From Pagrus major (Eukaryota; Chordata; Actinopteri; Spariformes; Sparidae): a stretch of 64,000 nucleotides of DNA. The DNA lies in contig NC_133224.1 of the NCBI RefSeq assembly GCF_040436345.1, positions 7,246,741-7,310,740 of the forward strand, read 5' to 3'. Of this stretch, positions 12,811 through 59,000 are shown one piece after another (within the stretch, counting starts at the first letter, position 1; each line of letters opens with the position of its first letter). The notes under the pieces are model-generated. The model was not told the DNA's origin and made no database searches. It saw nothing but the letters and a program-made list of their open reading frames with translations. The position numbers and the translations under genes are program-made.

Positions 12811-15800
12811 TCATGGACCTGGAAGAAAACCAGAGAAAGCTGAGATTAAAGGTTATTAAAGATGTAGTTGCTTATAATTAAAGACACAAATCACAACATC
12901 AACATTATATGGCAGCATTATTACCAAGAGCTGTTCCGAATTTGACTTCAGAATAAACAGTTTCACCAGTTAGTCCAGGAGATAAATTTCCTAGAAATGA
13001 TTAGAGAGAGATGATTAGTTTACCTGTGAAACACCAGATACATCTACCTGATACATCTATACGTTTTTTCTGAGATCACCAGGGTGATTTGAACCACGCA
13101 GACCCGTAATTATGTACAGGGTCTATTTTAATGATCTTAAAACAAAATATTTGATGGACTTTTATAAGTGATCGTTCCTGCAGCTGATCCTATTTTCACA
13201 GTGGAGTAAACAGAGCTCTCCTCTGGTTTGTTGTGCCGTCCTGTTAAAGTGATCATATACATGAAAAAAAATCACATTTTCTTTTATTCAGGCATTGCCA
13301 ACCTCAAAAAGATCTTTTTTACAATAGTACTTACTGCTTGTACTTTGAGTACTCACCCTTATTTCTAAAGTTTTTGAGTTGAATCAAAGAGTATGTGACA
13401 TCGCTGGATTCATCAGCACCTGAAATGTACAGTAGTGGAATGTCAAATATGATCAGTCATCTTAAATCATTGTCTTTGAGTGTTTCTGACTGTTCTGTGT
13501 AAATAAATTAACTACTATTTTACCTCAGTATCACCGCACCTCAGTAAAACAGATAATTTCAATTTCCTGATACCCACTGAATTGCATTATTATTTGGTGT
13601 GTAGCTCAAATTGCCTTCAGGGTATTTTTGAACAATACTGGTGTTTTAATGTCTTATTATTTAGTACTGTAATGGAAGGGCTAATAATATTTGTGGGGAT
13701 TTTTTCTGTAGACAGAATAAAGCTTTTCAATTTGTTTTTTCAACAGGAAACAATGTGAAAAAAGTCTAAACCACCACCAACTCTGATCTTTTGTGCTTGT
13801 TGTAGATGAGTTGAGTGTTTGATAAACCAACTGACTGGTTGATTTTGGTGCCAGTCGGATGGATTGTGGCTTTTTACGACAACAATTATCCATAAAATCC
13901 ACCTACCCGAGAATAAGTATGATGAGATCAAAAGTCAAAATTAACAGCCCAGTTTCCAGGACAAAATGTTGGCAGTTAACATTTCCGCAAACCACTGAAA
14001 AATATGTACGTGTCATGGGCAACGTAACGTATTGTTTCAACATTTGTGACCGTGACACCACTGGATATTTTTGCAGTGACCTCAGGACAATTTACAGCCA
14101 TGTTTGTGGCAACCAAAACAGATATTTTAAGTCAAACCAGGATATTTTCCTAACCCTTACCAAGTGTTTTTTGTGCCTAAACCTAACCAGAGCATAAGCA
14201 CAGCGTTATGACGAGAGGAATAGAAAATAAATCCAAAGTTGCAACATAATTAACTCATCTGTGGTTTTGCAGAAGCGTACTTTGTCAACATTCATTCTGG
14301 AGATTGGGTTGTAAATGATCAATAACAGTTCATGAAATGAATCTCGATAATCTTTAAAGGCTGACCGCTGTGATGAGATGAGTTCACTTCTGGTTGTCCT
14401 GATTGGTTGTCCTGATTGGTTTTCTGGGACGGCGTTGTCCTAAAGAATATTGTTAAAACAGTCAGGTTAATAAGGGAACATTCGCTGCTTTGAAGTTCAA
14501 GAGAGTAGAGAGTGTTGTACCGACCTGGCAAAGAGTGAATCTGTGGGAAAAAAAAAGATAATTGGACTTCAGAATTGATCTGTGACTTTAAATAATCCGA
14601 TTGTAATCAATCAAATATTAGAAGTTAAAGGTCTCACACTTTGACTTTCTGCAGCAACACAACAGCAGCAGGACAATACTCAGTAAAATCCCACAAACCA
14701 GCCCGATGATCACTGGCAGAATAACTGAAGAGGTTTCAGGCCTGGACACTGCAGTGAAAGTCAGAGTTATTAAATGTTATCTGTAGTTTGCAGGTCAAAG
14801 GTCAAAAACAAAATACTCATCATAGCTGTACACATTTGTACTCATTATTAGACTGTATGAGACATTTACAGTAAATTAGACATTTTCCAGCCATCATTAC
14901 TTCTAGGAAGGTGACGTATTTGACACCATTTCTTTAAAAACTGTGACAGATTCTGAAAAGGGAAGTTTTAATCATACTCACATTTGATGGCCACCCAACT
15001 CTGCGGTGACACATTTCCTGAGTATTCACACCAGTGGAAGCCTTCGTCTGACTCTGACGCTTCAGGGATATTCAGCTGCCCTCTGGTGTCATTTTGGATG
15101 AGAAGTCCATTTCGATAGAAGAGCACATTAGAAACCACATTTTCTGTCCTCGATTTGCAGCCAAGAGTGACAGGATGTCCCTCGGCCACAGGATGGACAG
15201 GGCTCAGCAGGATAATAGTTGTATCTGTGAAACAGTAAAAAAATCACATTTGTCACACATACACTTACATTCTGCTGTTATTCTTACATTAATCAAACCT
15301 CCCTAATAGAAAAGCCTTGGTGGTGACAGGTTGTGACTGACATAAGGAGTCAGAGGAAAGAAAAATTACAAGTTTATTTATTTTGATTGATTTACACATG
15401 AGCAGCAAGAATGTAATTACTTTGCGCAGTGATGTTGACTGCATTGCTGATTTGACCTGATCCAGACTCGCACCAGTACACTGCTGTATTTTTAATGAAT
15501 TTGTGGACGTTGCACGTGGATCCATTCACCGTCCCAAAGTCAGAACAGTTGGACAGACGATCTGTTTTGGATAACCTCATTACTCTCCACTCAGCAGAGT
15601 TTCCCTCACAGCTCAGAGACACAGACTCAGAGGGAAAGTGCTGCGCTCTGTCAGGGCTCACTCTGAGTGATGCTGCATGAAAATCTGCAAAATAACATTG
15701 CAGGAATATGATGAGATTAAGGACAGCACAGTTCAAATGATCTTTCAAACTTCTTTCAATGTTCGGTCTCAGTACTGTACACTGGCGGCTCCAACCCAAT

Positions 15801-20922: not shown

Positions 20923-23900
20923 TTATTGACCTGGAAGAAAACCATATTAGAAAAAGAGATGTTTCACAACATTTTACTTCCAATTACAACCCATTTAACT
21001 GAATCCTTACAGTGGCTTATTCCATTATGCACATTATTTTATCTCTTCATTATTACCCAAAGGTGCTCCTGGTTTGACTTCAGAATAGACAGTTTCATCC
21101 GCTGCTGCAGGACTTGATTTCCCTAAGAAAGGACAGAAGATTTGTTTTTTGTTTGCCATGATGTGACTGCCAGTGCGTGTGTACACAATGTAAATGAAAT
21201 AATAAACTAACTAAATAAATAAAGATAACAGATTACAGCTACTACTTTTGTCCAAGACAAACTGTACAGTAACAGCTGCAGGTGGATGGAGGCTTTACTT
21301 ACTATTGTCTTTCATGGCTTTATTGCGGCAGTGCACCTTGGCGTACATCACATCGTCATCTAAAACAGAGATTTTATTTACACAAAGACACATTGAAAAG
21401 GTAGACTGGCTGCAACTTTATAAAAGTAATGTTAACTTTGTAACCCAGTCAATTTAAAATCATATTTCAGCCATTTTAAGGCCTAAAATATTGAGTTTAT
21501 TTTAACATTTTGACATTTTGATTACAGCTATCTATGATTGATCAGCTATCCAACAAATTTGCAGAAGACAGAAGAAATTTCACAAAAGAAAATTGTGTCT
21601 ATAAAATGATCAAATCCTACACATACAGTATATAAAAGAGTTTTTAGACTTTGGGGGTATTTTTGTTTGTCTTTTGCTGGCCAAGTGTTTATATTAAAAA
21701 ATTACACTACAGCACACAGCACAGCATCCAACGTAAACCTCTGTTGAACTTGACTGTACCTGCAGCTGACTCCACAGCGCCCTCTTCTGGTCCATTATTC
21801 TTCCCTTTTAGATGGATCAAATGAATGCGTTAAAAAGGCAGTTTCCCACACTTTTAAGGCAGTGCCGGCCTACGAGAGTATTCTCACTACATGAAATAAA
21901 GTACTCACTCTACTTACCAATGTTTCTGAGCTCAATCGAAGAATATGTGCCATCATTTGATTCCTCTGAAATACAGATGTTTTCAGAATTAAGGGGTTGC
22001 CAATGAATCGCTTATAGTTAGATCATGTTATCATAGTATTTTTAACCGCTCGGTGTCAACCAAAAGCTGTAAACTGTACCATGTTCAGCTTCTTCAAGGC
22101 ATTTGATTGATTCATAGAGAACGGCATCACCTACAGAGCAGTTAAAATCAATCCAAAGTCATATTAATCATTTTAATACCATTATACGAATTCCCAAAAA
22201 CTTCGACAAAAGATAACCAGAATCAGAATTAAAGCTGACCATAGAGAGAAGAAGGCACATCTCTGAATTGAGTTTCATCCTGGTTGATCATGTGGTCTGT
22301 AGCAGAGCCCCGATTGGTGCTCTGTGACCTGGTGGGATCAAAACGTGAATTAAATACAGTGTATTTAATAAGGAGCATGTAACGTACTGCTGTAATGTTG
22401 AGAATAAGAGAAGAGTGTTGTAACAACCTGATGAAATATGATTCTGTAAAAAAAGAAAAAAGAAAGATACCTGCTGTTACATGTCTTTGTACGACATACG
22501 TCTTAGATTTTGACTGATATCCGAAGTAAATATCTCACCTTTTGACTTTGTGCAGTGGTGATACCGACACACCAGTAGTAGTAGTAGTAGGAGAATAATC
22601 AGTAAAACTCCACAAACCGGCCCAACAATCCACAGCACGGGAAATAAGGAGCTTTCAGATCTGGTCACAGCTATAATACATAATCATACATCATACATAC
22701 ATCTCTTTTAATATTTGTTTATATAGAACCTCTTCAAAATAGTTTAGTTTTCAAAAAAGTTACACAGCTTACAAAAAAATCCTGACAGAGACGGCTAATC
22801 ATACTCACATTTTACTGACATCCAACTCTCTGGTGATGTCCAACTCTGCCAACCATGCGGTGAATCTTGTCCTTTGCATTTATAGAGGCCTTCATCTGAT
22901 TTTGACACTGCGGGGATAGTCAGCTCCCTCCCGGTACCATTTTGGATGAGTTGTCCATCTTTGTAGAAGTCCACATTAGAAAGAACAGTTTCTGTCTTCA
23001 ACTTGCAGCCAAGAGTGACAGGATGTCCCTCGGCCACACGATGGACGGGGCTCACCAGGATTATTTCACCGTCTGTAGAAAGACCAAAGAATGTGAAGGT
23101 TTGGTCAGAGATCAGCTGCAGGTTGAGCAAACTGATGTACAAAGATGAGAGTTAAACAAATATTTTCTCATTTGTTTTACAGATGAGGTACAGGGCGATA
23201 GTCATTTAGACTAGAGACATGGTCAGGGATGTTATCAGGCCCAGCATGCATTAACTTCAGCTGGCAACCTGGCCTTTGACATAATAGGGGTGCTCCTTAT
23301 TTTCTTAGACTGTTCTGGTCTGGATCTCCTGCCACATGTCTTCAGTGTTGTTGGTGTTGACCTCTCCGGTCTTCTGGTCTCCAGCCTCTTCTGATGACTT
23401 TGTTTTGCCTCCTTGATGCCCTCTTGCAGTCTCGCTCTGGCGGCGCCGTAACCTTCCTTGTCACCTGACCGAATGGCAGCTGGACCTCGGCTCTGGACAG
23501 AGTCTTCACACTAACACACTGATGATACATATTCCTAACGACTGATGTGGTACAGCTGTGTGGCATCATCTCTGAACATGTGCCAGTCTGTGCACTGACA
23601 ACAGTCCTACAGAGCTCCTGTAGCTTCATCTATCCACAGTTGAACTGTCTTTTTCTGATGGCTTGACCCTTGTAATCAGCTGGGCGTTACATTGCAGGAG
23701 AAGCAGGGAAATGTGGTCTGATTGTCCAAAGTGTGTCAGGGTAGGGCTATGACATAATAGCATTGTGAAAGCAAGGCTCACAGGGAACCAATCTGAAGTC
23801 CCCAGGCTTGAAAGCCAATGGTGTCATTATTCTATATCCATTACATTGTGCAATCAATATTTACTTCATAATGATACATTTAAGGAAAAATAATGGTCTA

Positions 23901-31230: not shown

Positions 31231-34200
31231 TTACAGACCTGGAAGAAAACCACAAAAACAAAGATACAGTTTAAGGATGCTTTCTGACATGTTATTCTGG
31301 CTGACGCCTCGACACTGTGCAGCTTGATGGATGAACAGATGGATTGACAGGTAGGACAAAAATAAAGGAAATGTTGGATGCCCTTGTGTTTATTTCACGA
31401 CAATACAGCAGCATCTGATATTTAAATGAAAATCAAAATACTTCGGAATGAGATTTGATCACCACAGCTAATGTGTCTTTTGATTGTCTTTTTTTATTTT
31501 ACATAAACAATTAAGTTTTTTTGCCATATCTGCAATATGGAAATGTATTTAATGTGTTACAGAAAACATTGACAAACACAGACAAACATAGAAATACCCA
31601 AAAGTCTGAAAGGCATTAGGTATGTGTCAATTTCCAACTCTAGTGGCACCTAGTGGTAGGTGACCGACATTAACTGAACTGCATGTGCACCCATAATTAC
31701 CTGCAGTGTTATGATGTGCATGCAAACGACTGTTGTAACTGACTGTACCTGCAGCTCCAGTCCCCACATTAGAGTAAATTGATGTCTCCTCTGGTGTATG
31801 TTGCTTCCCTGTGAAGACGATCACATGAATCCATACAGAAAAAAAATAAATCAATACTTTTTACACTCAAGGTATTTCTATTTACTGGCTTTATTTAGAG
31901 TACTCAACCTTCTTCCAGTTCAACCGAAGAATATGTGACGTGCTGGGATCCACCTGCGACTGAAATGTACATATTTAGTTACAGGATTATATATCGATCA
32001 CTTGGAAACAGTTCTCTTTATTCATGCAGTGGTTGCATTTCTAACGTAATGTTAAAGTTAATAAAAGGTGTAAACTGTACCATTTTCAGTGTCTTCAGAG
32101 CGTTTGATCACTTCATACAGACAGACATCAGCTACAGAGCAACGAAAACAAGCCACAGTCAGAGTCATCTTTTAAATGTTACGATACTTAAAAAAAGGAC
32201 CCTCAGTTCATGTGTGTCCTTTAGAAGTGTGAATATACCAAGATTATTGCATGCTTACCATGGAGAAGAGAGTCGTATGTGTTGCACTGAGCCTCATTCT
32301 GATCTGTGTTGGAGCTCTCAGACTGGATTGGCCTAAAACATGAAGCAAATACAAAACATTTAATAAACAGGAACATTGAATGTCTTGCTGTTATGTTCAA
32401 GATGTGACAAAACAGTTTTGCACCAACCTATTGAAGCATGTATCTGTAAAACAGATGAAGATTTGTTGTTACATGGTTTTGTATTGTAAGTTGTTGTACT
32501 GCTGTTCTATCTCATCAGGTCAGAATATGTCTGTATTTCAATTCAACATGAACACCAAACATCTAATAACAGAAGAAGAAGGTCTCACCCTTGGAAGGTC
32601 TGTAGCGACACAACAGGAGCAGAAGAAGAATAAGAACGATTCCACAAACCAGCCCAACAATCAACAGTACAGGAAATGAAGAGCTTTCAGGCCTGGACAC
32701 TGCTGTAATAAATAACAAATAATAACTGTCAATAAACTTATATAGCATGTTTCTAAAACTCAATTTACAAAGTGCTTTAATGGATATCAGAGTTGTGTTA
32801 CATTAATCCATAGTAAAGACAAAAACACAAAAAATACAAAGTTTCTTTCTCAGACAGAAACACAGTTCACATAAAGAAAATGGAATAATTGTTTTAATCC
32901 TACTCACCCTGAACTGACATCCAGCTCTGTGCTGACTCTCGTCTCCAGTATTGACACTTGTAGAATCCTTCATCTGACTTTGACACTGCAGAGATATTTA
33001 ACTCCCATCTGGTGTCATTTTGAATCAGTTTCTCATTGTGATAGAAAAACACACTGGAGTCAAATGTTTGGCTTCTTAATTTGCAGCTCAGACTAACAGA
33101 GTCTCCCTCAGTCACAGGACGGGCAGGACTCAGCAGGATCATATCTCCATCTGTTAAACAGTCAAAGAATACGAGGTTTCAGTCAGAGATCAGCTGGTCG
33201 AGGAACTTGAGAATGACTGGATGTAGAGAGATGAGAAAAGATACATACTGGGTTTTTCTTGTGCTTATTGCTCACTGATTTAACAGAGTGATCATAAAAT
33301 CTGATGTTTTATCAAACACCTTGAGTCTCCTACTGTATAAGTCACCTTTAACCAAATAATTGATGTTTCTAGTTTTCTCCTACTCACTTGGAAACAGAAA
33401 GTGAGGAGAGGGGTATTCAGTTGGTTGAATGTGAAACCTCACTGCTAGAGGCCACTAAATCCTACACATTGGACCTTTAAACATGTTCACTGACATAAAA
33501 ACTAAAGTACAGATGACCCATAAACCTACACAAACCTGCTGTATACTACATCCAGTCCTCATCATAGTGAGGTGAAGCTGGCACTGCTAACATGTAGTAC
33601 AGGTTTAAAATCACAGTTTAATTAAATATGTTACTATTTTTACTAATTGAAAACAATTAAATACTTAAGATATCATTAAGCCAGTTGATGAGCAATACTC
33701 TTTAAGTGTCAGTGTACTTTACTCAACACACAATGCATGGTTTATTTTAAATAATTATTCATTTATTCAAAATTAATATTATTCCAAATTAGTTAATCAA
33801 TTCATCTATATGCAAAAAACAAAATATATGAAATCATACCCTGTATAGTGATGTTGACTGCGTTGCTGAACTCTCCTGATCCAGACTCACACCAGTACAC
33901 TGCATCACTGCGCCTGTAAATTCTTAGTTTGCATGTTGATCCAGTCATTGTCCCCCAAGTGGTGCAGTCTGACGGGTATCTGTCCTCAGTTGATAACCTC
34001 TTCACTCTCCACTCAGTAGAGTTTCCCTCACAGCTCAGTGAGACAGAGTCAGAGGTGAAGTGTTGAGCTCTGTCAGGACTCACTGTGAGAGACGCTGATG
34101 AGTGAAAATCTGAAAAACAACATGTGATAAGAGGTCAAACAGAGCACAGAGATCTTTAGATATGAAATGCCTCAATTCAAATAGTCTTTAGCTTTGTTTT

Positions 34201-42870: not shown

Positions 42871-43633
42871 AAAATATTCCTCTTCTTGATTTACCACTGA
42901 GTATAGTCACGGCACTCTTGGAAATGGTAATGATACAATGATAATGATATATGTATAATACATGTCAAGGAAGTAATATGTAACATTTCTACATTAAAAT
43001 GTCTAAAATGACCAGACCTTTTTCATATACTTTGTTGAGTTTTGCGCTAATATTATCTTAAATGTTTCAAACAATGTTCAAACCCCCAAAATGGTTTCAT
43101 TTAGTCGCCTGACTTTGATTTTGAAACTAAAAAACAAAACAAAACATGAAATATAGAGAATATCAAACCATTTTTAAAATGACAGAAGAAAGCTTGTTTG
43201 TGTAACAGGATTTTCTTTTCACATAAAATACATTAAATGTTATAAAAGTTTAACTCTTTTTAATCAAAAACTACAAAAGATGCTGACTTTAAAGTTGCAC
43301 AATCACCTCGTACCGAGTGTCGACACATAATATTTGTTCTTTGCAACAACAAACAACAACAACAAAGGTGTCAGAACATACTGGACGTAAACAACAAAAC
43401 ATTTCAATTATTAAATGTGATAATCTAAACTCTTTATACCAAATACAACAGAAGATTAAAACCATATGATACATTCATTTTAAATGACCAGCTATTAGAT
43501 TAACTTTACCAAATACTGTTTGTTATTTGGACAGCACAGCTGCACACAGTGATCACATGAAAGCTGTGAAAGTACACAGATGTAGTTTTTCATGTTGTCG
43601 TCCGCTCCATTGGTTCAGTTGATACAGATTTCT

Positions 43634-46600
43634 TTATTGACCTGAAAGAAAAAGCAAAGTCAACAAAAAAGAGATTGAGGTTTATGTCAGGATTAAAAAT
43701 GCTTTGTGACATTTTACTCTGTCCTCTCTCTCTCTCTCTCCCACCACTATCCCTCCATGTTAAATAAAAAGGTATAAACTGTACCATGTTCAGCTTCTTG
43801 ACGGCCTCTGATTGTGTCATAGAGACAAACATCACCTACAGAGAAATGAAAATCAAGTCAAGGTTAATTTTATCAGTTTAACTGTAAACAACAAATGAAT
43901 CATGTGAGACCTCAGATTGTATTGATCATTTAAAATGTGTTTATAGAGTCAAAAAGACTGAGACCACGCAACAACTCTATTTTTCATTTGTTTTGAATGT
44001 AATATTATTTTTTATATAACAATTTGAGTTAAAAGTTGATTCTTTGAATAATTCTGGTATTTCTTAACCCACCTCCAGTCTTTCGTCTTGCTTCACCAAC
44101 TAAGAAATGGTTTAGGAACGGCTAATCACCCTCCAGACAACTACAAGACAGCTTTCCTTTGACAGACTTCACCTGATTGGATTCTTGTGTGTGTATTTAT
44201 CAAATTCTGTATCTGTGATGAAGTTGCTTTTTTATCTTTCAGGGAACAACTTGATTTATTGATCTTCTGAAAGTGTCTTGTGGAATTTCGGCTCGCTGAG
44301 AGATGAAGAAAACTCAGAGACACCGACGACTTACGTCGAAGTAGTTTATACAAACATGATCATGGAGGAACAAAATAACAGCACAACTGTCTGCACAGTG
44401 CATTGTCAAGTCAATCCTCCCAAACCTTCTCTAGTTTCAGGTTATGTCCTCTAAGCTCAGGAAGCAGTCCTCCCATACATAGTTATCTGTTTAACAACAA
44501 ATAAGTGGGAAGTTACTGCAGAGCTTCTCACCTCTGACTTAGTGAGGAATACAAAGAAAATGTGTAGAAGACAGTAAGTCTGCTACTGCAGATGGATCAA
44601 AGGCCATCCTATGAGTTTACACAAACAACAGCCTTGGTTAGTCAGAGATCCGTTTTGTAAACATGTCTACAGCAGCTTCCAACTGCTAAGTTTGCAAAGA
44701 CCATGAGATATAAACTCATAGATCAGACGTCACTATGCCCTCATCCATACATTATCGGGCCTAACCTTTATACAGGGTATGTAGGACATCTTTCTCCCAC
44801 AGTGTGCTCACTTTGGGTCTGTCTTTGGATACAACTGATCCAGTTTCTGTGAAGTGTTTTACAGTTTATATTGTTACATGCACTGCTCCTTTAGAAACCT
44901 TGAGTCTGGAAATGATTTGATGCTAAGACTCACACTTTCTTAACATTTTCTGATTATTTCCAGGTTTACGTGACAATATTAGAGATTTTCAATGGTCTCA
45001 GACTTTTGGACCCCACTGTATAAATATGTAAGATTAGACTTATAATATTAGTTTAACTGCTTACCATGGAGAAGAGTGGAGTAATGATCATTCTCGTAGT
45101 CCTCACGATTTGCGTTGGCGCTCTCAGACTGGACTGGTCTACAACACGTATCAGATACAATACATTTAAATAGGGACATAAACATGTGTTGATGTTATGT
45201 TCAAAATGAGATGAGGGAGTGTTGCACCTACCTGACAAAGCATGAATCTGTGAAAAAGACATTTGTTGTTAGATGTGTAACTCAGTCTAAAATATGTCAT
45301 TTCAGACAAATAAATATGCTCAAGGATTGTCAATAAGTCATTTACAGTTAAATTAAATTGTCTCATATTTCTAACAGCTCCATGTTAAATAAAAAGGTAT
45401 AAACTGTACCATGTTCAGCTTCTTGACGGCCTCTGACTGTTTCATAGAGACAAACATCACCTACAGAGAAATGAAAACCAAGTCAAGGTTAATTAACAAT
45501 ACTTATTAAACAAACTAAGATTTTTTTAGATTACTTAAAATATTATATGTAAAAAATAAAGATTAGTTTAACTGCTTACCATGGAGAAGAGCAGAGTAAT
45601 TATCATTCTCGTAGTCCACACGATCTGTGTTGGCGCTCTCAGACTGGACTGGTCTACAACATATATCAGATACAATACATTTAAATAGGAACATAAACGT
45701 GTTGATATTACGTTCAAAATGAGATGAGAGAGTTGCACCTACCTGACAAAGCATGAATCTGTGAAAAAGACATTTGTTGTTAGATGGTTGTTATACTGCT
45801 GTTCTATCTCATGAGATCAGAGTATGTGTGTGTATTTGAATAATTAAAAAACATCTAATAATAGAAGAAGAAGGTCTCACCCTTGGACGCTCTGTAGCAG
45901 AACAACACCAGCAGAGGAATAACAAGAACGAGTCCACAAACCAGCCCAACAACCAACAGTACAGGAAATGGAGAGCTTTCAGGCCTGGACACTGCTGTAA
46001 TAAATAGTAAATATTAACTATTAATGAATAAAACTGAATTAGTGCTTTAATCAGAGTCAACGGAAACCAACAGGTGAATGTGTCTGAAACTAAAACTACT
46101 TTGAATTTAGTTCAGTATTCAGCTAAATTTCTTTCTCACACAGAAACAGTTCACATATAAAAGAAAATGGAATAATTGTTTTAATCCTACTCACCCTGAA
46201 CTGACATCCAGCTCTGTGCTGACTCTTGTCCTGAGTGTTGACACTTGTAGAATCCTTCATCTGACTTTGACACTGCAGAGATATTTAACTCCCATCTGGT
46301 GTCATTTTGAATCAGTTTCTCATTGTGATAGAAAAACACACTGGAGTCAAATGTTTGGCTTCTTAATTTGCAGCTCAGACTAACAGACTCTCCCTCAGTC
46401 ACAGGACGGGCAGGACTCAGCAGGATCATATCTCCATCTGTTAAACAGTCAAAGAATACGAGGTTTCAGTCAGAGATCAGCTGGTCGAGGAACTTGAGAA
46501 TGACTGGATGTAGAGAGATGAGAAAAGATACATACTGGGTTTTTCTTGTGCTTATTGCTCACTGATTTAACAGAGTGATCATAAAATCTGATGTTTTATC

Positions 46601-49600
46601 AAACACCTTGAGTCTCCTACTGTATAAGTCACCTTTAACCAAATAATTGATGTTTCTAGTTTTCTCCTACTCACTTGGAAACAGAAAGTGAGGAGAGGGG
46701 TATTCAGTTGGTTGAATGTGAAACCTCACTGCTAGAGGCCACTAAATCCTACACATTGGACCTTTAAACATGTTCACTGACATAAAAACTAAAGTACAGA
46801 TGACCCATAAACCTACACAAACCTGCTGTATACTACATCCAGTCCTCATCATAGTGAGGTGAAGCTGGCACTGCTAACGTGTAGTACAGGTTTAAAATCA
46901 CAGTTTAATCAAATATATTACTATTTTTACTAATTGAAAACAATTAAATACTTAAGATATCATTAAGCCAGTTGATGAGCAATACTCTTTAAGTGTCAGT
47001 GTACTTTATTCAACACACAATGGATGGTTTATTTTAAATAATTATTCATTTATTCAAAATTAATATTATTCCAAATTAGTTAATCAATTCATCTATATGC
47101 AAAAAACAAAGTATAATAAAATCGTACTCTGTATAGTGATGTTGACTGCGTTGCTGAACTCTCCTGATCCAGACTCACACCAGTACACTTCATCACTGGG
47201 CCTGTAGGTGTCTATGTTGCATGTAGATCCAGTCATTGTCCCCCAGATGGTGCAGTCTGACGGGTATCTGTCCTCAGTTGATAACCTCTTCACTCTCCAC
47301 TCAGCAGAGTTTCCCTCACAGCTCAGTGAGACAGAGTCAGAGGTGAAGTGTTGAGCTCTGTCAGGACTCACTGTGAGAGACGCTGATGAGTGAAAATCTG
47401 AAAAACAACATGTGATAAGAGGTCAAACAGAGCACAGAGATCTTAAGATATGAAATGCCTCAATTCAAATAGTCTTTAGCTTTGTTTTGTTTTTTATCGC
47501 AACAAAGTTCAGTATTTTGGTTAAATTATGATTTCTACTTTGACCTCTTGCTACAATTTTGAATACATTTTAAATGATAGACAACCAAGTGACTACAGCT
47601 GCTGTAAGCAGAAGAAGAGCTCAAGTATCCAGACTTAAAGTACTTTTTGTAAATGAGAGTAAAGTTTTAGCCAAGATATCATATCTCTCTTTTTGTGTTA
47701 TATGTTAAAGAGTGAGGACAGAAGGAAACAAGTCAATTCTACCCAGTAAGGTGGAAAGTGTGAAGTTTAGCTTGAAGCAAGTGAGAGAGTCAAGATCATG
47801 AGACCACAGTGAATTATTTTTTCTTTTTTAACTGTTTGTTTATCATCATTTAGAAAAAAGATGAACAGAGCTGATATAACATCTGTTTCTTAAGAGATAG
47901 AAACAAACTGACCTGCAGACCAGACAAACTTTGGTTCACTGTAATCAGTGTAAGACACTGGATCTCCTCTTCCAGCTGTGCACACATAACCTGCTGTGTG
48001 TGTCTGTCCATGAACAATGTAGGAATCCTGTTCAGTCCCACTGCTGCTGCCAGGTAGCAGCTCAATGCTGTAGGAGTTGTCTGATTGATCAGGAACAGTC
48101 TTATACCAGTAGAACCTCCATCCTGCAGATTGATCTTCAACGCTGCAGTTCAGAGTTACTGAGGCTCCAGCACTCAGCCATGATGGAGACACAGTGAGGA
48201 CAGGCCGGGGTGGTGCTGGAAAATGTTTTTTGAAATGAAAACATGTATTGATAGTGGATCAGATACATTCTGCACAATCAGTACATACTGATGATTTACT
48301 TTATTTTCTTTTTTTTTAATGAGCTGTTTAATCTTCACTTTGAAAGAAATGTGATGTGACTTACTGTCTGATACTGTCAGTTTGAAGGGATCACTCCAAT
48401 CTGTTGAAGACTTTTCACTTTTCTTTCTGCCCTTACACCAGTAGTCTCCACTGTGGGATGCAGAATCAAATCTAATTCTGTATTCATTTTGATTTGTAGG
48501 TTTTTCTGAGCTGGTTGTTTTCCATTCATACTCCCACTCAGTGTCTCCTCCATCTTTGATCTCACATCTGAGAGTGATCGTCTCTCCTCTGTATATTTCA
48601 GACCAGTTTGGCTGCAGAGTCACAACAGCCTTGTTGTGAACTGTTCATGTTCAAGAATTCACAGTAAGGAAACAAAAATGACAAAGTTAAATCTACATTA
48701 TGTTTTTTTAATAATCAATCAACAAATATAAATACAGTAAATGTTTTAAAATTATTTTTCCAAAACAAATATCAAACTCACCATTTTTGTTGACAGTGAT
48801 TGGATCACTGTACTCTGTGTAGTAAACTGGCTCTCCTCTTCCTCCTCTGCACCAGTAGACTCCTTCCTCTGAGACTCTGATTCGTCCAGCTGAGAGTTGA
48901 GTGGTCAGATGTTCAGATGTTTTCTCTCCTCTGTACCAGAAGTATTTCCAACCAGCTGATGGGTTCACAGAGCAGGTCAGGGTCACACTGCCCCCTACAG
49001 GAATGTCTCTGTCATCAGCCCTCAGTTCAGCCTTTGGTCTGTTTGCTGTTTGATTTAGAACAAAGACATAAACAAGGAAATTAATGTCACTGTGATTTAC
49101 TTCAGTTTATATAGTGCAGCCCCTACAGACAAGAGATACTTAAACTGTAAGACTGAAATTTGCATTAATATTATCACTGAATTAATTTATAAATACTGGA
49201 CACATATTAGTTTAAACCTCTCTTGCATGTCATGCCCCTCTCTCTTTTCCTGGGTTTCTTAATGAATTAGCTGCTGCACTACTGAATGTTACATGTGTGA
49301 AGGTAAAACCTTGTGTTTCAGTGTTGAAGAGCCAAGTTGAACACTTTCACTGTGGTTTTTCATTGTTGAAGGACAACTGTTTAATTATCAATGATCTGTA
49401 GCCTCTTATCCTTTGCAGGGTCACAGGGTGATTATCCCAGCTCACATTTGATGAGAGCGAGGTTACATCCTGGACAGACTGTCAGTCTATCACAGAGTGA
49501 ACACATAACACAGACGACCATTGACACTATCACTTACAGGAGATGTAGACGACTCAAGTGATTCATCTAAACTAACCTGACTGTGATTAACCTGAGTTAA

Positions 49601-52600
49601 CTCAACCAGTCGGCCAAATGTTTCTTTCACAGCCAGAACCTTTTTACTGTGGAGAACAGTGTTAAAATGGAATATCATCATCATCGTTTCCTGCTGCTTA
49701 ATTTAGATTAATGAAAACATTGAAACATGACATTTTCAGTATGAATGACAGATAGTCCAACTTACACCATACAGTCAATGTGATGGCGTCACTCCACTCT
49801 GTTGAGGAATATGAGTCTCTTCTTCCTTTACACCTGTGTTCTCCACTGTGAGCCTTAGTAGCACTGATAGTCCTGTATTCATTGGATGTTGTAGGTGTGT
49901 TTAAGTTGTCTGGTGACCATTCATACGTCCATTTATTATCTCTTCCCCTCTGGATCTCACATCTGAGGGTGATCGTCTCTCCACTGAATATCCAGCTGTG
50001 AGGAGTCCAGATGGGTTGAAGGGTCAAAGTGGCCCTGTTGGAAACTGTTCAGATAAAATATGCAGTTAGGATGCAAACAGGATTAAAATTATCCAGATAA
50101 ACATTTTCCACTATAATCTTGATACCTATTACTTGAATACGTTTCAAAAATCATACAAATACAACTCAACAGCTATGAGAACATAATAGTTTCCTAAATT
50201 GTGACAAGAAACTACTCAAAGGCCAGTGACGTGCCAAGCAGTGTTAATAGTAGCAGCTGCTGAAGGGATGAGAGCTTTCAGAGTTTAACAACAGTCTCCC
50301 AAAATACTAGCAGCCTTCCACAGGATGCATTTAGTGCAGACATAGACTGTTTTGACCACAGCAACATGGAAGAACATTTTCATTATCCCTCTTTGTTAGT
50401 CTTGTGTCTAATGTCTAGTTCATCATGCAGGCTGGATTCTATATTTTTATAAACAGTTTGGTAAAAGGCCTTAATGAACATATCAACACATTTATAACAT
50501 TAGGATTTAAAGTTTGTTCTGCTTAAAATCTTTTAAAAATAAAAATATGTAGTGATTTTGGCATTAATAACATTAATGTTTAACTCCCAGCACAACATGC
50601 TGATTGTGTGTTTTCCCAGCCACCTCCACTTCCTCTTGTTCACAACTACAGTATTAGCAGCAGTACTGTGTAAACTTCTCCTCATGAACAATCTCCTAAT
50701 ACAGATATTGATAAATAAATCTGAACAGCATAAAGGAAGCATCCTCAAATCTTTGTTTCTGTTAACAAATTGAAGGAGGTCGAACCAGTAGCCCATTCTT
50801 GCCAGGATGAAGTATATTTAAACTTTTTTTTTTTCTCTCAGTAAAGTGAGAGGTACTGGGCTAACATGACTAACAATCACTTTCCCTTCACACTGTGGAC
50901 ATTGTTTAAGAACATAAAGACTGTAGGTTGTTTATTCCATTAGAAAATACTAAACTCACCAGTTTCCTCAATGACGACTGCATTACTATCAGGTGTGATG
51001 ACATCTGGTTCACTTCTCCATCCAAAGCAGGTGTATGTGCCTCCTTGTGAGATAACTCTGTTTGATTCAGAAACATTTTCAGTCGGAAGAGGAGTTTTTC
51101 CAGAAGAGTCTGACGTCTCTCTGAACCACTGATATTTGAAGCCAGCAGGATCCTCCACAGTACATGTCAGTGTCACACTGCCCCCCGGTGGTATGACTGT
51201 CCTGTCTGCTGTCAGTGTGACTGTACGTCCACCTGCTGTTTGGTTTAGAAAAACAATAAGACAAGGAAATTACTGTCATGGACATGCCATCAGAAATGTG
51301 TTTACAGTATTACATAACACAATGAAAACACTTATTGTTTCAATGAACTGATTTGTTGAACAGTTTTGACCCCACAAACAGCTGCAAGTACAGAAAACAC
51401 AAGAAAACAGAGAAAAGTTGTTCACATCAAGATAAATATGTTTCAATACTAAACACATTTCTAGGGACCACTAGTAGTAAAAGGCTGATAGTACGTGTAC
51501 CCAATATCTGAAATAACTAAATCAGGCAATCAGTTTGTGAAATCTAAAATTAACTTCAATATGACTGGCAAGTGGTCGAGATATTTGATATTCAGTATTC
51601 ATATTATTGGTCTTCAGTTCCCCTAGTGTCACATCTGTGAATGTGTTTCTTGATTTGAGTTTAATTTATTTGCAGCATTTTCCTTAAGTTGCAGTGCGTT
51701 AAGCGCTCTGAGCCACCTGCAGCTTTGAGACAAAAGCTGCTTGAAATTGAGGACGGTCAGTCAGTTTATTGATTGGTAAGTTGGAGGCAGATGAAATATT
51801 GACTTGTTAAGCAATTTTTTGCATAGTTTGAATAATTCATGAAGCATTTACTGCAAAACCAAGAGAAAATCTCTGTTGGATGAGGACTCAGAAAAGCGGA
51901 CATTTGATCTTTGACGGCTAGTTTGTGACATATTATTAAGATTTTTGGTGCAGCATTGACAACAATCCTATTTTTTTTTTTCCATTACTTTGACACAACT
52001 TCTTGAAACAAATCACCTCAGATTACAATGTGTACTGAGCTGTGTGAGACAGAAACTGTCAAAAAATGACAAACTAAGCCAGTCAAGGTTTAAAGTTTCA
52101 GGACATGAAAACAAGATTCAGTTTATGTTCATACATCATACGAGCACAGTGCAAAACATGATCATATCAACATGGCTTATAAATAACTTATACTGTTGCT
52201 GCTGAACTTGGTGATAGTAACAATAACTTTACAGAGCTGCTGGATACAGTTAACAATGTTTTATTACTCATACATAGAGACTATAGAGTGATAAAGTTTA
52301 AAGACATATATGGCAAAATATGCCGAAGAGCATTGAAACTGATCTGGAGATTTGTAGTTTTCAAAGACTTACGACTACTTTTGTTATTTAAGACACTTTA
52401 GTTTGGTTTATAATTTGTCAGCCAAGCATTTGACAACTTGTGACTGTTGCAGCTCCCAGAGGTAATACCAAGAAACACAGAATGAGGCAGCAAACACACC
52501 ATGTCACTGCCCAGAATGACTGAGTGAGTGACAGACTGTTGTAAGTGACTGTATCACCTGTTGGTTCTTTCTCCTCATCAGACTAATCTCCTTCTTCATA

Positions 52601-53454
52601 ATTCTGCTCTGTTAAAATGATCAAATAGGTAACAGACTCATCATTTTTGTGACTTTTTTGTGTAATATTCTGTTATAATTGTGTATTAGGTTTAGATAAT
52701 GTTTTGTTCATTTGATCTTTCTAACAAAGCAGTTTGAACAGCTTTTTCTACACAGCTTCAGTGAACCAAACTAAAGCAGCTTTACAGTCACTCAACTTAT
52801 TCCAGTGTGAAGTCAGTGGTATCATGCAGAGCTACGCTTTCCAAGTAGCTTCCCTTAACAATTGAGCACTAATCCAGTCATTTCATAATGTGCACTGAGT
52901 CAAATGAAACATATATGGAAAAACACAACTGCAAACACAAGTGATCAAGAGAGACACAGTAGGTGACAGATAGGACAAACATGATCAGTAAATATAGAAA
53001 AGATAACTAGTCACCTTCAGCATGTCCGTACAGGAGTGTATTCAGCACTAAAATAAAGATGAAAACTGCATTAGACCAGAATCAAATAAAAAATCCAGCT
53101 GGAGTTTCATCAGTGGCAACTATTGTTTATCAATCAACAGTATCACACGTCTGTGATGATATCCTGCTACAGAGCTACAGAGGTGGGAAACACATTTAAA
53201 AACTCTTCAATACATAGAGGCCCAGTAAAATAAGCAATAGATGTAACTCCACAGCTATATACATAATACCTTAGATCATATACTGTACATGTATTGTCCA
53301 GGTATGGACATAATCCTCCAATCTGAACCAAGCCAAATCAGCAACAAAGGTCCTGCCTACACAACTACTACACTGATATAAATACTGAACATCACATAGA
53401 AAATCAGATGTACTCACAGAGTAACCCGAGCACACCGAGCAGAGTGTGCCCCAT
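43634..53454 (-). CDS. Gene B: multi-Ig Fc receptor-like/LITR-like receptor, double-ITAM tail
   Basis: Complete predicted gene of about 794 residues. Start ATG is 53452-53454 in signal exon 53418-53454 (MGHTLLGVLGLL), followed by mini-exon 53015-53047 (LNTLLYGHAE), a split signal peptide typical of FcR-family genes. Ig exons: D2 50960-51235, D3 49766-50044, D4 48782-49045, D5 48365-48640, D6 47913-48215, D7 47128-47397, D8 46195-46437. The transmembrane exon is 45881-45994. Unlike A and C it has no D1 Ig exon, so D2 is the N-terminal domain; the mini-exon and D2 are both phase 1 and join in frame. The gene ends at the stop 43634-43636. The TM segment has no charged residue, which argues for signalling through its own tail rather than a charged-TM adaptor. 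Surface receptor of leukocytes by family analogy; ligand unknown. Confidence 0.86.
43719..43743. repeat. CT microsatellite
   Basis: A run of (TC)n in the intron between the last ITAM exon and the stop exon of gene B. The gene A equivalent lacks it. Confidence 0.7.
43785..45758 (-). other. Gene B cytoplasmic exons: duplicated ITAM cassette
   Basis: Cassette 1 is 45743-45758, 45580-45653, 45410-45460, reading YSAL-x7-YETV. Cassette 2 is 45232-45247, 45065-45138, 43785-43835, reading YSTL-x7-YDTI, a consensus ITAM. Both also carry a DYEND motif upstream. The last exon adds Gly-Gln-stop. The last intron of cassette 2 is enlarged by a Tc1-like remnant, so the two halves of ITAM 2 lie about 1.2 kb apart. 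Tail sequence and exon order match gene A and not gene C. Confidence 0.8.
43943..45020. mobile_element. Tc1/mariner-like remnant in gene B tail intron
   Basis: Inverted ends: GTCAAAAAGACTGAGACCA (near 43949) and TGGTCTCAGACTTTTGGACC (near 44993-45012), the latter ending CCCACTGTA at 45020. No transposase ORF. It lies between the two exons that form ITAM 2. The gene A counterpart is about half as long. Confidence 0.7.
46655..46770 (-). repeat. Short interspersed repeat in gene B D7-D8 intron
   Basis: Near-exact copy of 33365-33485 at the equivalent intron position. Confidence 0.55.
51236..53014. other. Gene B intron between mini-exon and D2 (D1 exon missing)
   Basis: Aligns with gene C on both sides, but from about 52005 to 52240 the D1 exon region is replaced by unrelated sequence. 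Part of this (about 52145-52190, GTGCAAAACATGATCATATC and on) matches the sequence 3' of the gene D D1 exon (26975-27020). A coding-like relic is at 52430-52620. Confidence 0.55.
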
Positions 53455-55539: not shown

Positions 55540-56078
55540 GATGCATAAAATGGTCAACGACCTTTTAAAAATATACATTTATATAAAACAAAACATAAAA
55601 TACAGAGAATATCAAACCATTTTTAAAATGACAGAAGCTTGTTTGTGTAACAGGATTTTTCTTTCACATAAAAGACATTAAATGATATAAATGTTTAACT
55701 CTTTTTAATCAAAAACTACAAAAGATGCTGACTTTAAAGTTGCACAATCACCTCGTACCGAGTGTCGACACATAATATTTGTTCTTTGCAACAACAAACA
55801 ACAACAACAAAGGTGTCAGAACATACCGGACGTAAACAACAAAACATTTCAATTATTATATGTGATAATCTAAACTCTTTATACCAAATACAACAGAAGA
55901 TTAAAACCATATGATACATTCATTTTAAATGACCTGCTGTTAGATTCACTTTACCAAATACTGTTTGTTATTTGGACAGCACAGCTGCACACAGTGATCA
56001 CATGACAGCTGTGAAAGTACACAGATGTAGTTTTTCATGTTGTCGTCCGCTCCATTGGTTCAGTTGATACAGATTTCT

Positions 56079-59000
56079 TTACTGACCTGAAAGAAAAAGC
56101 AAAGTCAACAAAAAGATTGAGGTTTATGTCAGGATTCTTTACAATCAATAAAATAATATGTTAGATCATTGGATTAATTTGACATGTAAATATTTTTTTA
56201 CTTAAAGAATTGTAAATGAGTCATTTACAGTTAATTGTCCTATTTCAGTTTTTCTAACAGCTCCATGTTAAATAAGAAGGTATAAACTGTACCATGTTCA
56301 GCTTCTTGACAGCCTCTGATTGTGTCATAGAGACAAACATCACCTACAGAGAAATGAAAATCAAGTCAAGGTTAATTTAATCACTTTAACTGTAAACAAC
56401 AAATGAATCATGTGAGACCTCAGATTGTTTTGATCATTTAAAATGTGTTGATAGAGTCAAAAAGACTGAGACCACGCAACAACTCTATTTTGCATTTGTT
56501 TCGAATGTAATAATATTTTTTATTGCAGATGATAATATCAGCTGAACAATTTGAGTTAAAAGTTGATTCTTTGAAGAATTCTGGTATTTCTTAACCCACC
56601 TCCAGTCTTTTGTCTTGCTTCACCAACTAAGAAGTGGTTTAGGAACGGCTAATCGTCCTCGAGAAAACTACAAGACAGCTTTCCTTTGACAGACTTCACC
56701 TGATTGGATTCTTGTGTGTGTATTTATCAAATTCTGTATCTGTGATGAAGTTGCTTTTCTATCTTTCAGGGAACAAACTTGATTTATTGATCTTCTGATG
56801 GTGTGGCCACTTTGGGTCCGTCTTTGGATACAACTGATCCAGTTTCTGTGAAGTGTTTTATAGTTTATAATGTTACATGCACTGCTCCTTTAGAAACCTT
56901 GAGTCTGGAAATGATTTGATGCTAAGACTCACACTTTCTTTGCATTTTCTGATTATTTCCAGGTTTATGTGACAATATTAGAGATTTTCAATGGTCTCAG
57001 ACTTTTGGACCCCACTGTATAAATATGTAAGTTTAGACTTATAATATTAGTTTAAGTGCTTACCATGGAGAAGAGAGGAGTAATGATCATTCTCGTAGTC
57101 CCCACGATCTGCGTTGGCGCTCTCCAGCTGGACTGGTCTACAACACGTATCAGATACAATACGTTTAAATAGGAACATAAACATGTGTTGATGTTATGTT
57201 CAAAATGAGATGAGAGAGTGTTGCACCTACCTGACAAAGCATGAATCTGTGGAAAAGACATTAGTTTTTAGATGTGTAACTCAGTCTAAAATATGTCATT
57301 CAGGCAAATAAATATGCTCAAGGATTGTCAATAAGTCATTTACAGTTAAATTAAATTGTCTCATATTTCTAACAGCTCCATGTTAAATAAAAAGGTATAA
57401 ACTGTACCATGTTCAGCTTCTTGACGGCCTCTGACTGTTTCATAGAGACAAACATCACCTACAGAGAAATAAATATCAAGCCAAGGTTAGTTTCCAATAC
57501 TTATTAAACAAACTAAGATTTTTTTAGATTACTTAAAATATAATATGTAAAAAAATAAAGATAAGTTTAACTGCTTACCATGGAGAAGAGCAGAGTAATT
57601 ATCATTCTCGTAGTCCACACGATCTGCGTTGGCGCTCTCAGGCTGGACCGGTCTACAACACGTATCAGATACAATACATTTAAATAGGAACATAAACATG
57701 TGTTGATGTTATGTTCAAAATGAGATGAGAGAGTGTTGCACCTACCTGACAAAGCATGAATCTGTGAAAAAGACATTTGTTGTTAGATGGTTGTTATACT
57801 GCTATTCTATCTCATGAGATCAGAGTATGTGTGTGTATTTGAATAATTAAACAACATCTAATAATAGAAGAAGAAGGTCTCACCATTGGACGCTCTGTAG
57901 CAAAACAACACCAGCAGAGGAATAACAAGAACGAGTCCACAAACCAGCCCAACAACCAACAGTACAGGAAATGAAGAGCTTTCAGGCCTGGATACTGCTG
58001 TAATAAATAGTAAATATGAACTATTAATGAACATGTTTCTAAAACTGAATTTACAAAGTGCTTTAATCAGAGTCAACGGAAACCATCAGATGAATGTGTC
58101 TGAAACTAAAACTACTTTGAATTTAGTTCAGTATTCAGCTAAACTTCTTTCTCACACAGAAACAGTTCACATATAAAAGAAAATGCAGCAATTGTTTTAA
58201 TCCTACTCACCCTGAACTGACATCCAGCTCTGTGCTGACTCTTGTCCTGAGTGTTGACACTTGTAGAATCCTTCATCTGACTTTGACACTGCAGAGATAT
58301 TTAACTCCCATCTGGTGTCACGTTGAATCAGTTTCTCATTGTGATAGAAAAACACAGTGGAGTTAAATGTTTGGTTTCTTACTTTGCAGCTCAGACTAAC
58401 AGAGTCTCCCTCAGTCACAGGACGGGCAGGACTCAGCAGGATCATATCTCCATCTGTTAAACAGTCAAAGAATATGAGGTTTCAGTCAGAGATCAGATGG
58501 TCGAGGAACTTGAGAATGAGTGGATGTAGAGAGATGAGAAAAGATACATACTGGGTTTTTTTCTTTGATTTTATTCATTGATTTAACAGTGATCATAAAA
58601 TCTGACGTTGTATCTTCATACACCTTGTGTGTCTTACTGTTCAAGAACCCTTTCAGTTGGCTGAATCTGCAACCAAACAGCTAAATGTCACTAAATCCTT
58701 CACACTGGACTTTAAATGGTGATCATGGACCTAAAACCTGAAGAACAGATCAGCCACAAATCTATATTCTATATTTATACATGGTTAAAATCACAGTGTG
58801 ATTAAATACTTAACTATGTTTATTAAGTGAAAACGATTAATTACTAGAGAGATCATGAAGCAGAGTGTTGGGCAAAACTCTAACATGTCAGTGTCCTGTA
58901 CTCATCAACACACAATGGGATGTTTGAAATAACAAGTAAAAGAAAAACAAATATAATAAAATCATACCCTGTATAGTGATGTTGACTGCGTTGCTGAACT

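Follow-up and report, generated by a model that had tools for sequence, protein, structure and literature searches.

A tandemly doubled ITAM exon block in two FcR/FCRL-type receptor genes of Pagrus major, the probable activating partners of a neighbour with ITIM-like exons

Receptors of the FcR family that carry ITAM-like motifs in their own cytoplasmic tail are already known, and FCRL1 is the nearest example. Mouse FCRL1 has Y281ENV and Y293SLV as an ITAM-like pair, of which Y281 has been described to bind GRB2 or c-Abl, and human FCRL1 is described with two ITAM-like motifs (PMC10562807, PMC12250417). The mouse receptor has Val at both +3 positions and is reported still to signal (PMC10562807). 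FCRL2-5 are described as having a multi-Ig ectodomain and tails in which ITAM-like motifs and ITIMs are mixed (PMC10562807). FcR-related multigene clusters have been reported from catfish (LITR) and Xenopus (XFL). According to these reports, the XFL tails hold one to three YxxL/I/V motifs on exons separate from the transmembrane exon, the tails of the TM1 class being short, and the stimulatory LITR that was studied is joined to an ITAM adaptor (PMC2413239, PMC4810170). Dog CEACAM1 and CEACAM28 are similar outside and have opposite tail motifs on short cytoplasmic exons. Gene conversion between paralogues in the outer exons and exchange of the transmembrane and tail exons have both been proposed for the dog CEACAMs (PMC2110893).

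Here we describe Ig-superfamily genes that lie in a row along the minus strand within a 64,000-nt stretch of Pagrus major DNA (contig NC_133224.1, hereafter the window, to which all coordinates refer). A mechanical scan placed Ig-type exons fitting phase 1-1 along the row. The genes are lettered A to F from the highest to the lowest coordinate, as in an earlier sequence-only reading of this DNA, and the 5' part of A lies outside the window. A search with the transmembrane exon of A gave five transmembrane-like exons in the window, A's own included; that of F was read separately. For B, a whole coding model of 17 exons and 794 residues was obtained (43605-53454), consisting of two signal-peptide exons, seven Ig exons, a transmembrane exon (45881-45994), six block exons and a last exon. 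Its reading frame is open across all 794 residues, the splice sites having been chosen to keep phase 1.

All seven Ig exons of B are phase 1-1 and encode one Ig domain each, which is a trait of the FcR/FCRL family. The signal peptide is encoded by two exons of 37 coding bp and 33 bp, where the FcR/FCRL rule gives 21 bp for the second; this 30/21 rule is described as valid for a fraction of frog genes (PMC2413239). When the model was compared with PDB sequences (phmmer), FCRL5 was the best match (2.3e-26), FcgRI and FCRL4 reached 5.7e-15 and 4.5e-12, and LILR (from 4.2e-8), KIR and CD22 were weaker, all among the best 60 of 70 matches. Judged by these matches, the B ectodomain is closest to FcR/FCRL. 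Pfam returned generic Ig families for six of eight stretches tried and no match for the other two. Relatives of a two-Ig stretch of B were also sought among viral contigs, and none of the 12 pattern matches was a relative. The mechanical scan gave no counterpart in B (region 51290-53015) of an Ig exon present in A (63896-63615) and C (39184-38906), and across this region the B model joins the signal-peptide exons directly to the next domain.

The central feature of A and B is a block of three small exons (16, 74 and 51 bp), running from phase 1 to phase 1, which is present in two tandem copies in each gene. In A, it follows a transmembrane exon of 114 bp (57884-57997), which by eye encodes a hydrophobic stretch without a charged residue. 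Block 1 comprises exons at 57746-57761 (16 bp, phase 1 to 2), 57579-57652 (74 bp, with YEND and YSAL) and 57408-57458 (51 bp, YETV), and block 2 comprises exons at 57231-57246 (16 bp), 57064-57137 (74 bp, YEND and YSSL) and 56293-56343 (51 bp, YDTI). The interval 56293-57761 coincides exactly with the two copies, its limits being the outer ends of the 16-bp exon of copy 1 and of the 51-bp exon of copy 2. A last exon, of which 56050-56086 is the initial part, starts at 56086 and reads Gly-Gln-stop. The same layout is repeated in B downward from 45994, with block 1 at 45743-45758, 45580-45653 (YEND and YSAL) and 45410-45460 (YETV), and block 2 at 45232-45247, 45065-45138 (YEND and YSTL) and 43785-43835 (YDTI).

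AG/GT flanks were found at six of six block exons in A and six of six in B, with incoming phases of 1, 2 and 1 in either copy and phase 1 after each copy. The YxxL lies whole in the 74-bp exon and the Yxx(I/V) whole in the 51-bp exon, with the spacing YxxL-x7-Yxx[V/I], and the intron between them falls in the Gly codon of YSALLH-G-DVCLYETV. The motif region reads ...VDYENDNYSALLHGDVCLYETV... in copy 1 of A and ...GDYENDHYSSLLHGDVCLYDTI... in copy 2; copy 1 of B is identical to copy 1 of A in the ITAM motif, and copy 2 of B has E for G together with YSTL. Both the 51-bp exon by itself and the pair of 16- and 74-bp exons run from phase 1 to phase 1, which leaves two ways of cutting the block without a frameshift. 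The two copies in A share 232 nt at 94% and a further 128 nt at 94%, introns included, the first shared parts being 515 bp apart, and because the introns are alike as well, we regard the tandem duplication as a genomic one. The sequence-only reading had described an ITAM divided between two small exons, a phase-symmetrical unit and its tandem duplication in both genes, and it is borne out on each of these points.

It had further placed the block, with the same three lengths, twice in A and B and once in C and F, and these copy numbers hold for all four genes. The lengths are the same in C, where a single block (32081-32443; exons 32443-32428, 32332-32259 and 32131-32081) reads YDSL-x7-YEVI. 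The single block of F (200-655, YSSL-x7-YETI), a gene that runs off the window, has a middle exon of 98 bp in the same phase, so its lengths are 16+98+51. A single block in D had been overlooked (22080-22443, 16+89+51 bp): its second half is YESI, and its middle exon ends in DVPSSLY, without the YxxL tyrosine. The exons that follow the block in C and D are taken up below. The middle tail exons of F (414-421) and D (22232-22239) are followed by GTCAG, not GTAAG; such weak donors might permit read-through or skipping of an ITAM half. For E, no counterpart of the 74- or 51-bp exon was found at 55% identity or more. A transmembrane-like exon and a sequence resembling the 16-bp exon are seen in E at 14525-14760, and E is possibly a receptor without tail motifs, or a dead gene.

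The ITAM consensus YxxL/I x6-8 YxxL/I is found in the second copies of A and B and in C and F, and the first copies of A and B have Val at the end. The D/E expected at Y-3 is absent from all four A and B copies, which have N there, with D at -2 and E at -4. As a control, the residues of a single block were permuted 20000 times for each of the four blocks tried; the ITAM-like pattern, with V allowed at the end, arose in 50 permutations for copy 1 of A, 104 for copy 2 of A, 23 for C and 22 for F.

Like human and mouse FCRL1, A and B are FcR-family receptors with ITAM-like motifs in their own tail. FCRL1 has two or three domains, whereas B has seven Ig exons, and the human protein has a charged transmembrane residue, of which there is none here. 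FCRL2-5, which include the best PDB match to B, resemble this cluster in their multi-Ig ectodomains and mixed tails; unlike them, the A and B models are without ITIMs, and it is C and D that have ITIM-like exons. CD79a is described as having its tail on two exons and a 7-residue ITAM spacing, in shark as in mammals, but it is a signal subunit with one Ig domain and its last two introns are phase 0 (PMC4034164). Among multi-ITAM proteins, CD3-zeta with its three ITAMs is the evident parallel. FcgRIIA is also an FcR with its own ITAM; unlike that of A and B, this ITAM has a 12-residue spacing and is described as lying on one exon of retroviral origin (PMC6563257). The dog CEACAMs have a single ITAM whose first YxxL is interrupted by a phase-0 intron (PMC2110893), whereas in A and B the YxxL is complete before a phase-1 intron begins, and the block is doubled. 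The ITIM exons of salmon NILTs are likewise described as phase 0 (PMC3022915). In contrast to these accounts of CD79a, dog CEACAMs and salmon NILTs, the tail introns modelled here are phase 1, except inside the 16/74 pair. Phase-1 tail introns make single motifs exchangeable, and this suggests that the ITAM may have been made by placing two one-tyrosine units side by side. The catfish LITR and Xenopus XFL are like this cluster in being FcR-related multigene clusters, and their available descriptions (PMC2413239, PMC4810170) contain no doubled ITAM block. More generally, we found no precedent for a doubled phase-1 ITAM block in the open-access accounts available. Tails of the FCRL1 kind with ITAM-like motifs are known already, and A and B are a variant of that kind.

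The doubling can be placed relative to the separation of A and B. The intron that separates the 74-bp from the 51-bp exon is short in C (127 bp) and in block 1 (A, 120 bp; B, 119 bp) but much longer in block 2 (A, 720 bp, 56344-57063; B, 1229 bp). Starting at their first base, the two long introns can be aligned with each other, at 96% identity across 263 bp and 92% across 461 bp. In A, this intron contains inverted ends (56456-56487 and 56979-57010, 78% complementary), and the insertion is best described as transposon-like, with imperfect inverted ends. Since it sits at the same place in block 2 of both genes, the doubling is older than the split, and block 2 was present before A and B parted. 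A Tc1-type element, suggested by the look of the ends and of an ORF inside the insertion, was rejected after Pfam gave only one weak, unrelated match for two ORFs tried. Within the B intron, about 525 bp (44277-44801) are absent from A, with a 4-bp overlap at the ends in the alignment; this stretch looks like a nested insertion.

The copies themselves are less clear in this respect. Among 330 ungapped shared sites, four vary copy-wise (A1=B1, A2=B2), one varies gene-wise (A1=A2, B1=B2), none crosswise and 26 in other ways. Homogenisation within each gene was considered and rejected, as the one site in 330 that fits it stands against four copy-wise sites, although the raw core distances are mixed. 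Pairwise core distances show no clean grouping by copy: over the 223 sites of part I there are 13 differences for A2-B2, 13 for A1-A2 and 10 for A1-B2, over the 111 sites of part II there are 3 for B1-B2 and 5 for A1-B1, and the bootstraps are 46 and 65. Because the core distances are mixed, the dating leans mainly on the shared insertion, and some later gene conversion between the copies is possible.

The neighbouring genes differ from A and B in what follows the ITAM. In C, the single ITAM is followed by two ITIM-like exons of phase 1-1, one of 51 bp with VTYSSV (31909-31959) and one of 60 bp with SIYSNV (31749-31808). D has four phase 1-1 exons of 48, 45, 57 and 66 bp (21057-21965), which carry TYSSI, no tyrosine, VMYAKV (ITIM-like) and TVYSEV (ITSM-like), respectively. 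No ITIM was found in the tail models of A and B. Behind block 2 of A lies a decayed relic of an ITIM-type exon that has lost its acceptor (56145-56196). Its 52 nt align with the TYSSI exon of D and the acceptor of that exon (37 of 52 positions, ungapped) with a score of 44, which none of 500 dinucleotide shuffles reached (maximum 40); against the C exon, one of 500 shuffles reached the score. As read from the aligned sequences, the AG of the acceptor has been lost and a stop follows immediately in frame. Six such tests were made, uncorrected for their number, covering the regions after block 1 of A, block 2 of A and block 1 of B; the region after block 2 of B is rearranged. Neither gene showed a significant relic after block 1 (A, 67/500 shuffles against D and 260/500 against C; B, 22/500 and 299/500). 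Moreover, the last exon of D matches that of A and B at 31 of 55 bases, with the Gly-Gln-stop start in common, and the sequence just past it is 84% alike over 88 bp. Given the ITIM-type exons in C and D and the dead copy in A, the A and B tails probably derive from one with both ITAM and ITIMs.

This bears on the earlier proposal that the doubling is a means of changing signalling dose; on that view the second ITAM would raise signal strength and no more, and the loss of ITIMs and the YEND motif would be incidental. All three tyrosines are kept in both blocks of both genes. ITAM number has been described to amplify TCR signals (PMC4428620), which by analogy makes a dose effect of the doubled block plausible. 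As a full account, dose alone appears rather unlikely to us, since copy 1 lacks Ile at +3 in both genes and the ITIM-type exons of C and D are missing from A and B. The absence of these exons, the relic in A and the ectodomains shared with C together look like a switch from a dual to an activating receptor within a paired set, beyond a change of dose.

The ectodomains of A, B and C are indeed closely similar. Over the five shared Ig exons, protein identity is 406/446 (91.0%) for A-B, 395/446 (88.6%) for A-C and 407/446 (91.3%) for B-C, and over block 1 it is 45/47, 21/47 and 23/47. At the DNA level, B and C are 98-100% identical in three 200-bp segments of 46831-46232 and then 65%; the similarity ends some 40 bp past the last Ig exon, within the following intron, and that between B and A stays at 94-98% across this point. 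A falls from 97% to 74% against C at the same place. The B-C break was sited at 46100-46200 in B and 32830-32910 in C, with 98-100% before it and about 55-65% after it, and it suggests a recent gene conversion or an exchange of tails. A is also unlike B and C (75-87%) one intron earlier, ahead of the last Ig exon, so the similarity is patchy. Either the ectodomains may have been held alike by gene conversion, or tails may have been exchanged. Similar ectodomains with opposite tail motifs, the mark of paired receptors, are found here, as C has ITIM-like exons and the A and B models have none. A and B look like the activating side of such a set, with ITIM exons lost and the ITAM doubled, and C, which itself has an ITAM, would be their inhibitory or dual partner.

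In both A and B, similarity to C is lost abruptly in the intron that follows the last Ig exon, as would also be expected if their tail had been acquired by recombination from another receptor gene, and not through loss of ITIMs from the ITAM+ITIM tail of the family. We consider such an origin unlikely, because the last exon is common to A, B and D, and the relic in A stands in the place expected of an ITIM-type exon.

The two copies of the block differ in the same way in both genes, the second half being YETV in copy 1 and YDTI in copy 2. The corresponding motif is YEVI in C, YESI in D and YETI in F, and since all three keep Ile, YETV is the derived form. Syk prefers Leu or Ile at +3. The sequence-only reading, in which the proximal copy had drifted and the distal one had stayed at the consensus, is thus right about YETV and incomplete about the distal copy, where Asp is derived as well (Glu in C, D and F). 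Each of the four copy-wise sites falls in coding sequence. They amount to N/H in the residue that precedes the YxxL tyrosine, a Ser codon with a silent change, and E/D and V/I in the second half. Two further codons are identical in copy 1 of A and B but not in the second copies (V versus G and E; A versus S and T). In all, copy 1 is common to A and B and unlike both second copies at six codons, which surround the tyrosines and fall within codons 18-39 of the 47.

Every A and B block also contains a tyrosine that the earlier reading did not mention, in YEND, five residues before the first ITAM tyrosine (DYEND[N/H]YS.L); it is absent from the blocks of C, D and F. A pYxN sequence is a Grb2-type site, and YEND is a putative site of this type. 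The nearest functional precedent is the YENV of mouse FCRL1, which shows that motifs with Val at +3 or a YEN site can be used to recruit adaptors and not Syk alone. In mouse FCRL1, YENV is part of the ITAM-like pair, whereas in A and B the YEN tyrosine is additional to a full ITAM and was doubled with it.

Block 1 could alternatively be redundant and decaying, its ITAM having drifted to YETV after the duplication and contributing little. Val at +3 is off the YxxL/I consensus, to which C, D and F keep with Ile. A decay of this kind is nevertheless quite improbable, as no DNA difference between A and B is listed for codons 17-47 of block 1 but codons 18, 27 and 42 are variable in block 2, and as mouse FCRL1 is described to signal with Val at both +3 positions (PMC10562807). 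It is very improbable that the copies stem from an assembly duplication, or from unused exons in dead genes: short exons are easily over-read, but the copies are about 94% alike and not identical, the two genes have different further insertions, all borders are AG/GT with consistent phases, and B is open over 794 residues.

Taken together, we favour as reasonably probable a history in which FcR/FCRL-type A and B arose by ITIM loss, block doubling, insertion and then gene duplication, with C as their partner. A and B would be surface receptors of this family that signal by their own tail. This tail would be modular, as each tyrosine motif in the modelled genes lies on a short phase 1-1 exon or exon pair, and adding or removing such a unit leaves the reading frame intact. 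The ancestral tail would have had one ITAM and ITIM-type exons, as in C (and in D, where the first ITAM tyrosine is gone). In the common ancestor of A and B the ITIM-type exons would have been lost and the three-exon ITAM block doubled in tandem; a transposon-like insertion into block 2 would have followed, and last the gene duplication that gave A and B. If the genes are expressed, with both blocks spliced together, clustering by ligands, which C may share, would lead Src-family kinases to phosphorylate the tail. Block 2 (YSS/TL-x7-YDTI) would then be the better docking site for Syk and block 1 (YSAL-x7-YETV) the weaker one, the YEND tyrosine of each block would dock Grb2-type adaptors, and the output would be activating. 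On the sequence evidence, A and B are most likely receptors of the activating type; each would have two tail ITAMs, unequal in quality, and two adaptor sites, and C with its ITIMs would be the partner.

A bolder proposal, which we offer only tentatively, is that an activating receptor was made from a dual ITAM/ITIM one by way of exchangeable phase-1 exons with one motif each, through ITIM loss and ITAM doubling, and that the copies then specialised. The proximal copy, with YEND, YSAL and YETV, would be adaptor-biased and weak for Syk, the distal YDTI copy would serve Syk, and skipping of a whole block would tune the output.

The locus offers a case, at the level of exons, of an immune receptor altering both the sign and the strength of its signal. 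Neighbours that are similar outside have tails that differ by the absence of ITIM exons and by an extra ITAM copy, and a dead ITIM-type exon is still readable. Since the ITAM copies differ by few codons, one natural background would serve to test how Val at +3, the number of ITAMs and a neighbouring pYxN site act.
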